This document shows, in pieces, positions 3,035 to 18,553 of a stretch of DNA of 64,000 nt (positions within the stretch are counted from its first letter, which is position 1; every line of letters begins with the position of its first letter). Both the position numbers and the translations under genes were made by a program. The notes beneath the pieces were generated by a model. That model worked only from the letters and a program-made list of their open reading frames with translations, had not been told where the DNA came from and did no database searches. Origin of the DNA: Natronosalvus caseinilyticus (GTDB lineage Archaea; Halobacteriota; Halobacteria; Halobacteriales; Natrialbaceae); contig NZ_CP071596.1 of the NCBI RefSeq assembly GCF_017357105.1, positions 248,001 through 312,000 of the forward strand. Reading direction: 5' to 3'.

Positions 3035-3085
3035 TTTAGGCCCGCCTAAAGATCGAGGGAGTTATAGTGGTTTAGGCGAGCCTAA
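3035..3085 (+). promoter_or_regulatory. Paired iron-box palindromes upstream of the iron-binding lipoprotein gene
   Basis: Two palindromes share the core TTAGGC-N2-GCCTAA: one at 3035-3050 (extended to TTTAGGC..GCCTAAA) and one at 3072-3085, ending five bases before the ATG at 3091. A TATA-like ttatag lies between them at 3062-3067. The core resembles the half-site pattern bound by DtxR-family metalloregulators (in haloarchaea Idr/SirR/TroR proteins). Boxes on both sides of the TATA element fit iron-dependent repression. The palindromes are seen directly; the regulator is inferred. Confidence 0.8.
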
Positions 3086-3090
3086 CTCGT

Positions 3091-4338
3091 ATGTCGAGAG
3101 AAGCGGGGACTCGCCGAGGGCCGACCCGGCGAGAGACGATCGCGTACAGTGGAGCCGTCCTCGGTGGTAGCGTATTCTCCGGTTGTCTGGCCGGAGAGGA
3201 GAACGGAGACGGGGATTCGCCCGCGTCGACCGGATCGGATGCCGAAGGCGATTCGGACGGCGAAGCCACTCGGTCCGAAGGCGAACCCTACACCGCCACG
3301 CTGGCGCCCGTGGGCGAAGTGACGTTCGACGCGGTTCCGGAGTCCGTTTTCACCGTCTTCCCCTGGTACGCCGACATGGCGGTCGCGCTCGGACACGGCG
3401 ACAGCATCAACTCGCTGTGGTGGGCCGAGGAGTTCGACTCGATCATGCAGTACTTCACCGCGGACCTCGAGGGCGTGTCGGTCTCGTGGGCGGGCCTCGA
3501 GGGCCAGTACGGGGCGAACGAGGAGCGGCTGTACGAACTCGACAGCGACCTCCATCTCGTCGACCCCGCCTGGCTATCGACCCAGGACGGCTGGGACCGT
3601 GACGCCATCGATCGAATCGCCGACACTGTCGCGCCGTGGTTCGGCAACCAGTACAGTAACCTTCACCAGACGCCGCCCGAGGCGTGGACCACCGACTACG
3701 AGTACTACACGCTCTGGGAACTGTTCGAACGGGTCGCCGCCGTCTACCGGGAGCGAGCCCGGTACGAGGCGCTGACGTCGGTCCACGCTGATCTCCTCGC
3801 CAGGGTCGAGCGCGACCGCCCGGCACGAGCGGACCGTCCCACCGTCGGCTACCTCCAGCTGCCGACCGACCTCAGCGCCGTCTCCGTCCTCCGGTTGAAC
3901 GCGCCCGGCTACTACAACGCCCACACGCGACCGCTCGGTGCGACCGACGCGTTCGAAGACCTCGAGATCACCGGCGAGTTCGCCTCGGTGGACTTCGAGA
4001 CGCTGCTCGAGGCCGACCCCGACGTCCTCCTCGTGCTCTGGGGGATGACGTCGTCGGTGGATCTCGAGGCGTTGCGCGCCAATCTCGAGGACCATCCCGT
4101 CGGCGGCCACCTCTCCGCGGTCCAGGAGGGGCGGGTGTACACGCAGGGGACGCGGTTCCAGGGACCACTCATGAACCTGTTCCAGCTCGAGATGACGGCC
4201 AAACAGCTCTATCTCGAGCAGTTCGGCGAGTGGCCAGGATACGAAGACGGCGACAGCTATCCCGACTTCGACGTGGACGAGCAGTTGTTCGATCGCCAGC
4301 GGGTGAGCACCATCGTTATGGAGGGGAGCGACGAATGA
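3091..4338 (+). CDS. Iron(III)-chelate ABC transporter substrate-binding lipoprotein
   Basis: A 415-residue extracellular binding protein of the periplasmic-binding-protein-like class used for ferric siderophores, haem or cobalamin. It has a Tat-type signal (TRRETIAYSG) and lipobox (FSGC, Cys32), then an Asp/Glu/Ser-rich tether and two lobes (about 65-225 and 235-395). The VFTVFPWYADMAVALG start of lobe one and FEDLEITGEFASVDFETLLEADPD in lobe two fit the family. Two iron boxes precede it. No permease or ATPase gene adjoins it, which is unusual; instead two uncharacterised genes follow, the first overlapping its stop codon. The exact ligand is not deducible; iron is inferred from the boxes. 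Confidence 0.87.
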   Translation: MSREAGTRRGPTRRETIAYSGAVLGGSVFSGCLAGEENGDGDSPASTGSDAEGDSDGEATRSEGEPYTATLAPVGEVTFDAVPESVFTVFPWYADMAVALGHGDSINSLWWAEEFDSIMQYFTADLEGVSVSWAGLEGQYGANEERLYELDSDLHLVDPAWLSTQDGWDRDAIDRIADTVAPWFGNQYSNLHQTPPEAWTTDYEYYTLWELFERVAAVYRERARYEALTSVHADLLARVERDRPARADRPTVGYLQLPTDLSAVSVLRLNAPGYYNAHTRPLGATDAFEDLEITGEFASVDFETLLEADPDVLLVLWGMTSSVDLEALRANLEDHPVGGHLSAVQEGRVYTQGTRFQGPLMNLFQLEMTAKQLYLEQFGEWPGYEDGDSYPDFDVDEQLFDRQRVSTIVMEGSDE

Positions 4339-4607
4339 GCAGCGACGACTCACGCCCCCAGAATCGACAGTGCCAATCGAACCGGTCGCAAGCGGAAACG
4401 GGATCTGATCCGTCGACCGACGGCCGCCCCCGCATGCTGGCCCGGACGTGGGTCCTGGCGGCTCGATTCGGCGAACCGACCGACTACGACGTCCCGACGG
4501 TGCCGGCGTGGACCGTCCTCGAGCCGCAATCGGGTGGCATCGCGTTCGCCGCGGACGGCGCCGAGCCGTTCATCCGCGCCGAACGCCCAGCGACCGTGCG
4601 GCGGTAG
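4335..4607 (+). CDS. Unknown small protein in the iron-box operon
   Basis: A 90-residue protein whose ATG overlaps the stop of the binding-protein gene (ATGA at 4335-4338), a sign of translational coupling. The N-terminal 30 residues are polar and probably disordered. The rest (RMLARTWVLAARFGEPTD, then VPAWTVLEPQSGGIAFAADG) looks like one small beta-rich domain. There is no signal peptide, cysteine cluster or transmembrane segment, so a cytoplasmic location is likely. The following gene starts eight bases after the stop. I do not recognise the family. Its only functional hint is co-transcription behind the iron boxes. Confidence 0.7.
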   Translation: MSSDDSRPQNRQCQSNRSQAETGSDPSTDGRPRMLARTWVLAARFGEPTDYDVPTVPAWTVLEPQSGGIAFAADGAEPFIRAERPATVRR

Positions 4608-4615
4608 CGTGAGCG

Positions 4616-5575
4616 ATGGTCGGAACGACGCTCCAGGCGATCCGAACCCACCTCGAGGGGCTCGCCAGCGAGGACGGCGAGTATTCGCTCGTCTGCGCCA
4701 GATACGGCGACCGACCGGCACCGGCCGCAGACCTCCGGTTCGAGAGCCGAGCGACCGCCCGCCTGGCTGCCAGGGCCACCGAACAATATCGGGAAACGCT
4801 CCGTCGGTACGACCCACAGTTGCCCTACTACGACGTGATCGTTCGTCAGGAACACCCACCGGGCGACTGGGGCGTGGCCGGGAACCGGGACTCGAGCACC
4901 CGTGTACCCGACGGCGTCGCTTCGAACGCTCGTTCGAAATCAGATGCCGGACAGCGGACGGGCGAGGGACGTGACCTCGTCGAGTTCTGTCACCGCGTCG
5001 CCGGTGCCGCGTTCGAAACGATGTCGGCCCACGGCTACGACGCCCTCGAATCCGCGGTCATGGACGCCTACCTCGCGCTCGCCGAACGCCTCTCGAGTCC
5101 CGACGGGCTCTGTTTGTGCTTGCTCGAAAGTACGGCGATCGAGCTCGCTACTCAGCTGTCTCCGGCCGAGCAAGTGACGTTCCTCTCGGCGACGGCGGCT
5201 CGGCTGAACGCGAGCGACGATCCGAGCCACGGTCGAGTGGAACGGTCCATCGACGAATCGCTCTCGCAATTGCGGGCCGTCGGCATTCTCGAGACGGTCG
5301 AGTGGGCTCGAACGGGACCCACCGAGACGACCTCTGCCTCGAGACGGGCCGTGATCGACCTCGGCGAGTACGCGCTGTCGCCCAGCGGCGGTCGGCTTCC
5401 GCTCTTGCCCGTCGTCGTCGAGTGGTTCCGCTGTCAGCAGGCGTGGCTTCCCGTGTCTGCAACTGCGAGCAATTCGACGAACGGGTGGCGGATCGAGGTC
5501 GTTCGCGCACCCGAGCATCTCGAGGCCGCGGGTGTGGACGGGGCGAAGAGCCCGCTCGCGCCGCGCATCTCCTGA
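4616..5575 (+). CDS. Unknown cytoplasmic protein, third gene of the iron-box operon
   Basis: A 319-residue protein without signal or membrane segments. An N-terminal domain (about 1-80) has a run of charged helices and a conserved-looking FESRATARLAARATEQYR segment, ending in YYDVIV. A polar linker (about 83-120) precedes a helical domain (about 120-205), then a segment resembling a winged-helix half (SQLRAVGILETVEW, 225-245) and a C-terminal part with Trp/Pro-rich hydrophobic stretches. It sits eight bases after the previous stop, so it is probably in the same transcript. Similar proteins accompany iron-type binding proteins in other haloarchaea as far as I recall, but no function is known to me. 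Regulator or uptake accessory are both possible. Confidence 0.72.
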   Translation: MVGTTLQAIRTHLEGLASEDGEYSLVCARYGDRPAPAADLRFESRATARLAARATEQYRETLRRYDPQLPYYDVIVRQEHPPGDWGVAGNRDSSTRVPDGVASNARSKSDAGQRTGEGRDLVEFCHRVAGAAFETMSAHGYDALESAVMDAYLALAERLSSPDGLCLCLLESTAIELATQLSPAEQVTFLSATAARLNASDDPSHGRVERSIDESLSQLRAVGILETVEWARTGPTETTSASRRAVIDLGEYALSPSGGRLPLLPVVVEWFRCQQAWLPVSATASNSTNGWRIEVVRAPEHLEAAGVDGAKSPLAPRIS

Positions 5576-5714
5576 TCCCCATCTACGGTTCGAGCGCAGA
5601 CTCGACCGCGTTCGAACGAGGGCCCCGACGCTGCACCGTCTCCGTGAGCGATTCGAATTCGACGAGGGCAGCGCGTACCTACTCTTTTTCTCACCCGCCG
5701 TCGTGAGAGAGTGT

Positions 5715-6476: not shown

Positions 6477-7091
6477 GTGACTGCTTCTCCGACGACCGAC
6501 GCGACAACGCTCACCTTCGTCCGCCACGCCCACTCTCCCTACGTGCCGAACCGGGAGGCCGAACGAGGACTCTCCGGGCGCGGGCGACGGGACGCTGCTC
6601 GGGTCGCCGACGTGCTCGCTCGTGACGACCGCACCGTCGACGTCGTCTCGAGCCCCTACGCGCGGGCGGTCGAGACCGTCCAGCCGATAGCCGAAGCCGC
6701 CGGAACGAGCGTCGTCACGGACGACGGGTTTCGAGACCGGGCGCTGGCGGGAGACCACGTCGAGGACTTCGAGGCAGCGATCGAGCGAGTCTGGACGGAG
6801 CCCACGTTCGCCTGGCCGGGCGGCGAGTCGAACGACGAGGCGCAGGCGCGCGGCCTCGAGGCCGCCGAGCGAACGCTCGAGCGGTGGCCCGGCGACCACG
6901 TGATCGTCGGCACCCACGGTAACCTCCTGGCGCTGATCTTGCGTGCCTACGACGACCGATACGATTTCGACTTCTGGCGCGAAATGGCGATGCCGGACGT
7001 GTACCGGGTGACCTACCGGTGCGGAACCCCGGAGCGGATTACGAGAATCGATCCCGGCGCTCGAGCCGGGGCTCGAAGCGCTGGCGATTGA
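6477..7091 (+). CDS. Histidine phosphatase family protein
   Basis: A 204-residue member of the phosphoglycerate mutase-like superfamily. The phosphohistidine motif reads VRHAHS (His17 region), followed by SSPYARAVETVQPIA and the second catalytic His in VGTHGNLLALIL. These are phosphatases or mutases acting on small phosphorylated molecules; the substrate cannot be told from sequence. GTG at 6477 is the only sensible start, twelve bases after hisE, so it may be the last gene of the same transcript. The SPYV residues after the RHA motif, where the family usually has G, are a minor variation. Confidence 0.85.
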   Translation: MTASPTTDATTLTFVRHAHSPYVPNREAERGLSGRGRRDAARVADVLARDDRTVDVVSSPYARAVETVQPIAEAAGTSVVTDDGFRDRALAGDHVEDFEAAIERVWTEPTFAWPGGESNDEAQARGLEAAERTLERWPGDHVIVGTHGNLLALILRAYDDRYDFDFWREMAMPDVYRVTYRCGTPERITRIDPGARAGARSAGD

Positions 7092-7164
7092 CGGAACGGG
7101 CGCGCCCGCGGCGATCGCCGGTAGAACCGAACGGCTGAGAACGACGAGCGACCTCCGCAGGGAA

Positions 7165-18141: not shown

Positions 18142-18553
<412 letters not shown>

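Follow-up and report, generated by a model that had tools for sequence, protein, structure and literature searches.

Which role can a substrate-binding lipoprotein play when the genes that follow it encode neither a permease nor an ATPase, and what do those following genes contribute? The question is raised by a locus of Natronosalvus caseinilyticus that lies in the window, that is, the whole 64,000-nucleotide stretch of DNA that was analysed (Table 1). There the gene for the binding lipoprotein (SBP) shares four nucleotides (ATGA) with an open reading frame, here called P2, and the gene here called P3 begins after a gap of 8 nt; no permease or ATPase gene is present in this SBP-P2-P3 operon. 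Overlap, gap and both protein lengths had been given in a preliminary description of this DNA and agree with the open reading frames.

Table 1. Features of the SBP-P2-P3 locus, in window positions.
Feature	Positions	Strand	Description
Upstream DtxR-type iron box TTAGGCCCGCCTAA	3036..3049		exact; centre -49 from SBP start
TATA-like element TTATAG	3062..3067	+	between both boxes; about -26 from ATG 3091; putative promoter element
Downstream iron box TTAGGCGAGCCTAA	3072..3085		exact; centre -13; 36 bp from upstream box
Substrate-binding lipoprotein gene (SBP)	3091..4338	+	415 aa; FhuD/FecB-like; Peripla_BP_2
P2 open reading frame	4335..4607	+	90 aa when read from the ATGA overlap
Conserved P2 family part	4434..4607	+	57 aa; ends ...EPFIRAERPATVRR; without Pfam match
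P3 gene	4616..5575	+	319 aa; DUF7552-DUF7551 protein
DUF7552 domain of P3	4628..4852	+	residues 5-79; near-invariant Cys27, YR-LRRYDP motif
DUF7551 domain of P3	4976..5518	+	residues 121-301; Cys125-His126, Glu134, Tyr152, Glu157, Cys166

The SBP matches Peripla_BP_2 (PF01497) with an E-value of 6.6e-12 and 45.8 bits, against a Pfam cut-off of 27.5. A twin-arginine motif (TRRETIAYSG) and a lipobox (FSGC), both read from the sequence by eye and not by a predictor, mark it as a putative exported, lipid-anchored lipoprotein of the Tat type, and its cargo would be chelated iron, with a siderophore as the likeliest chelator. Cognate FecCD and FecE genes in the same operon are usual, but not required, for class III binding proteins of the FecB/FhuD type, and this operon has none. 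The preliminary description treated the absent permease and ATPase as an anomaly, but it is an ordinary state of affairs, because a box-controlled SBP-FecCD-FecE operon exists elsewhere in the same genome. Four proteins of the Peripla_BP_2 type are encoded in the genome, together with two good FecCD permeases, one of which belongs to this complete operon at C1:758-761 kb, where the same box (C1:758206) lies immediately before the first gene. The two binding proteins are 36% identical, and from this identity and the common box we infer that the SBP of the window may share the pump of that operon. The absence is also ordinary because haloarchaeal SBPs outnumber permeases: PMC11349517 gives 11 fhuD paralogues for two permeases in Hfx. 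volcanii, and reports the ferR signal (Leyn and Rodionov 2015) there on all fhu genes or operons. At related loci, the gene next after 185 SBPs is another SBP in 61 cases, an FAD oxidoreductase in 44, P2 in 38, P3 in 19 and FecCD in 4, and a permease-less SBP is therefore ordinary in haloarchaea. Tandem arrays of at least four SBP paralogues, adjoining P2, P3 or FAD genes, were seen at four loci (L076, L139, L142 and L143).

The two boxes before the SBP gene are exact copies of the TTAGG...CCTAA palindromic operator that characterises DtxR-family (FerR/Idr) regulons, and two Fe_dep_repr_C matches in the genome represent regulators of this family. Three exact boxes occur in the window, where 0.40 would be expected with up to 2 mismatches allowed; none of 100 shuffled sequences reached three. 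In the 4.24-Mb genome the pattern TTAGGCNNGCCTAA has five sites, against 0 for a reversed control: two in the SBP promoter, one at window position 18540, the one at C1:758206 and one at C1:3749733. The third exact box of the window (18540-18553) precedes a ferredoxin gene (18142-18480, minus strand) by about 60 nt, and a ferritin-like open reading frame ends at its other side; the exact box at C1:3749733 (L178:6551-6747) is just upstream of a 57-aa open reading frame that is not P2. Over the whole set of loci, 76 box pairs have a spacing of exactly 36 bp, typically with centres at -49 and -13, and the consensus of 73 promoters reads box, CGAAA, TTTAATT, box, ATG, with a BRE/TATA-like core. Such a box-flanked core may represent a promoter of the leaderless archaeal kind, with a site for a repressor on either side, and the SBP-P2-P3 locus would then be under iron regulation through its DtxR-type boxes.

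Within the genus, the cassette of boxes, SBP, P2 and P3 behaves as a unit that is jointly present or absent at one site. In the window and in congeners G250 and G277 all of its parts lie between the genes for PdxT and a DUF151 nuclease; in congeners G045, G046 and G253 the nuclease gene follows that of PdxT after 117-165 bp, leaving a clean empty site. In G277 (L170) the P2 frame is shifted by an extra base (at about 6940-7114) and the ATG of the SBP gene reads ATC (5597-5599), which may be either decay or sequencing error.

Linkage was then compared across Halobacteria with our own crude gene caller, at loci picked by their P3 and P2 matches, and the proportions given here are those of these samples. 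An SBP lies upstream, in the same run of genes, for 56 of 117 distinct P3 genes. A box of its own was found within 300 nt of P3 in 2 of these 56 and in 45 of the 61 without an SBP (control pattern, 0/117). Of 61 P2 genes, 47 come directly after an SBP, 28 of them with a gap of 0 nt; this position suggests translational coupling. Among the 14 solo copies, 11 have an iron box of their own. Both P2 and P3 either follow an SBP promoter or carry a box, and both are therefore iron-box genes in their own right. Among the 98 of 391 Halobacteria genomes with a P2 homologue, 75 encode DUF7551 as well (odds ratio 3.4, Fisher p 1e-6, with relatedness ignored and the overlap counted by hand from two tables). 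In the window, P2 and P3 most likely share the SBP transcript. The preliminary description had named missing linkage in other genomes, or separate transcripts, as what would speak against its proposal; a neighbourhood comparison of the kind it suggested found P2 and P3 linked to SBPs in many genera, and this, with the iron-box promoter and the behaviour of the cassette as a unit, leaves the association standing.

Its further idea, that the three genes form a conserved iron-responsive trio, holds for the linkage and for the iron-box promoter but not for the trio as a fixed module, since the gene order varies and P2 and P3 are each found without the other. Haloarchaea have a larger, modular iron-uptake cluster, of which the trio is one arrangement; the members of this cluster in relatives are FecCD, FecE, tandem SBPs, P2, a TrxR-like FAD protein, P3, DUF7260, a Fe_dep_repress (DtxR-family) regulator, Amphi-Trp and Dps/ferritin. 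The order is FecCD-FecE-SBP-SBP-SBP-P2-P3-DUF7260-DtxR in Natronomonas sp. CBA1123 (L254) and FAD-FecCD-FecE-SBP-P2-P3-DUF7260 in Halovenus carboxidivorans (L190), and in Natrinema, some other Natrialbaceae and several Haloferax P3 often occurs without an SBP and with its own box. DUF7260 is the commonest downstream partner in relatives and is absent from the genome studied here. The TrxR-like flavoprotein, often beside P3 in relatives, is not adjacent in the window, and its best match in the genome is 40% identical. In Haloprofundus marisrubri (L210:7185-7988) an open reading frame of 267 aa, methyltransferase-like by eye, lies between P2 and P3.

The P2 family as conserved measures 57-58 aa and begins at the internal ATG 4434, from which it follows that the 33 residues preceding this ATG in the 90-aa frame are either an unconserved extension or untranslated; the extension is in frame in one congener (L138). 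Neither the window protein nor any of 18 scanned members matches a Pfam family. SBPs adjacent to P2 are dispersed across the tree of SBPs (24 label changes, where shuffled labels give 38.1), so P2 is not linked to a single receptor type, and the possibility that it is bound to one SBP lineage was ruled out. No export signal was seen in the sequence of P2 or of P3, and both are probably internal, cytosolic proteins. P2 is probably accessory to the uptake step of the SBP.

P3 matches DUF7552 (E 6e-34, 116.5 bits against a cut-off of 27) and DUF7551 (E 1.4e-58, 198.5 bits against 52.6), and it is therefore a member of catalogued Pfam families of unassigned function. DUF7551 occurs in 218 of 391 Halobacteria genomes; a 295-genome phylum sample gave matches only within the order to which the window belongs, and in 14 control genomes only Haloferax volcanii exceeded the cut-off, with matches in Caulobacter falling below it. 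Among 116 sequences, His126, Glu134, Tyr152 and Cys166 are present in all, and Cys27 and Cys125 in 115 each; the near-invariant Cys27, Cys125, His126 and Cys166 suggest that P3 may carry out metal, haem or thiol/redox chemistry. Structure prediction, a check proposed in the preliminary description, gave an AlphaFold model of P3 (pLDDT 82, pTM 0.62) without a significant fold match and a model of P2 too poor for a fold search (pLDDT 60). A Foldseek search of the P3 model against the PDB returned nothing at E<=0.001, and the H-NOX (1u55, 6cww) and DmpR (6iy8) chains within its top 30 have E-values of 0.35-2.3 and TM scores of 0.24-0.26 by query length that make them unusable as evidence; by sequence, neither P3 nor P2 has a meaningful relative of solved structure. 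The winged-helix segment once suspected in P3 was not borne out, and P3 as a winged-helix regulator was rejected, as there is no Pfam HTH match and no significant Foldseek match, the nearest being a sub-threshold PqqD-like hit (E 0.18). Short proteins of 164-171 aa with a DUF7552-like domain alone were noticed at two loci (L197 and L159), and in L197 the gene overlaps that of a TrxR-like FAD oxidoreductase.

We consider it moderately probable that the SBP-P2-P3 locus belongs to the DtxR-family iron-starvation regulon as an accessory cassette, with an SBP that shares a pump and with P2 and P3 acting after import. At low iron, the promoter would be freed from repression at its two flanking boxes and a single transcript would be made; the SBP would serve as an extra surface receptor for its chelate and would pass this cargo to a FecCD-FecE pump whose genes lie elsewhere in the genome. 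P2 and P3, being non-exported, would work after import. With its near-invariant Cys and His residues, P3 would most likely bind iron, haem or an iron chelate and could act jointly with the TrxR-like flavoprotein in the release, reduction or transfer of iron, and P2, a small protein usually translated straight after the SBP, would probably assist in the same uptake step. Tentatively, we further propose that P3 is a new non-exported handler of iron, haem or ferric chelates, restricted to haloarchaea as sampled, which releases iron after siderophore import together with that flavoprotein, and that P2 represents a new family of receptor-coupled small proteins.

P3 might instead be a sensor or regulator that detects iron or redox state through its DUF7551 helices and signals to the transcription factors or kinases of the regulon. 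In one genome the gene for a PAS histidine kinase (L053:4527-5762) lies downstream of P3, a few genes away, and the kinase has DUF7551-like N-terminal helices, at E ~1e-6 but below Pfam's cut-off, similar weak matches occur in frames of about 410 aa in other genomes, and a DtxR-family gene often lies downstream of P3; P3 itself, however, has no DNA-binding or signalling domain and no winged-helix fold match, and we regard a sensory role as unlikely. An action of P2 and P3 on the SBP itself, through loading, maturation or signalling, would suit the frequency with which an SBP directly precedes P2 (47/61) or precedes P3 (56/117). Loading, which the preliminary description had suggested, is nevertheless topologically unlikely because the SBP, with its Tat signal and lipobox, would be outside the cell and P2 and P3 lack export signals; moreover, about half of the examined P3 loci (61/117) have no adjacent SBP, mostly with a box of their own, and the scatter of P2-adjacent SBPs over the tree ties P2 to no one receptor type. 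We therefore hold an action on the SBP to be quite improbable.

Little credence, to about the same degree, is given to the view that P2 and P3 have no part in uptake and are carried along by a mobile iron-box cassette as dispensable passengers. The frameshifted P2 and the ATC start of the SBP in G277, and the congeners without the cassette, are what one would expect of passengers, but dN/dS between congeners is 0.37-0.46 for P3 and 0.19-0.24 for the SBP, and DUF7551, in its 218 genomes, has kept its near-invariant residues and, repeatedly, its own iron box. The accessory cassette of an iron-starvation regulon is the reading that we prefer. It offers a testable role in iron starvation for two unassigned Pfam families, one of them (DUF7551) found in more than half of the Halobacteria genomes searched, and for a 57-aa family without a Pfam entry. 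To our knowledge, little is known of the way in which archaea free iron from siderophores once these have been imported, and P3 with its flavoprotein neighbour would provide concrete candidates for this step in the genetically tractable Haloferax. For the annotation of haloarchaeal genomes a rule also emerges, namely that a permease-less SBP is to be expected and that the box promoter marks the regulon.

The closest known system is the haloarchaeal FhuCGD siderophore ABC system with its FerR (DtxR-family) regulon, which has in common with the present locus the FhuD/FecB-type SBP, the TTAGG...CCTAA box promoter, many SBP paralogues per permease and the logic of iron starvation. It differs in that here P2 and a DUF7552-DUF7551 protein are encoded with the SBP, neither of which is mentioned in the passages of PMC11349517 consulted. 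P3 is a clear member of the Pfam families DUF7551 (PF24420) and DUF7552 (PF24422), to which the present analysis adds the link to an iron regulon; a literature search found no paper naming both haloarchaea and DUF7551, and a link between iron acquisition and DUF7551, DUF7552 and the P2 family is, as far as checked, new. FhuF, SIP/ViuB and the TrxR-like IruO are cytosolic, iron-regulated siderophore-iron reductases or release proteins that are encoded beside siderophore transporters. None of these families is matched by P3 in sequence, and the fold search with P3 gave no significant match; the parallel lies in how they work, and P3, which often adjoins a TrxR-like FAD protein, would be their functional counterpart.
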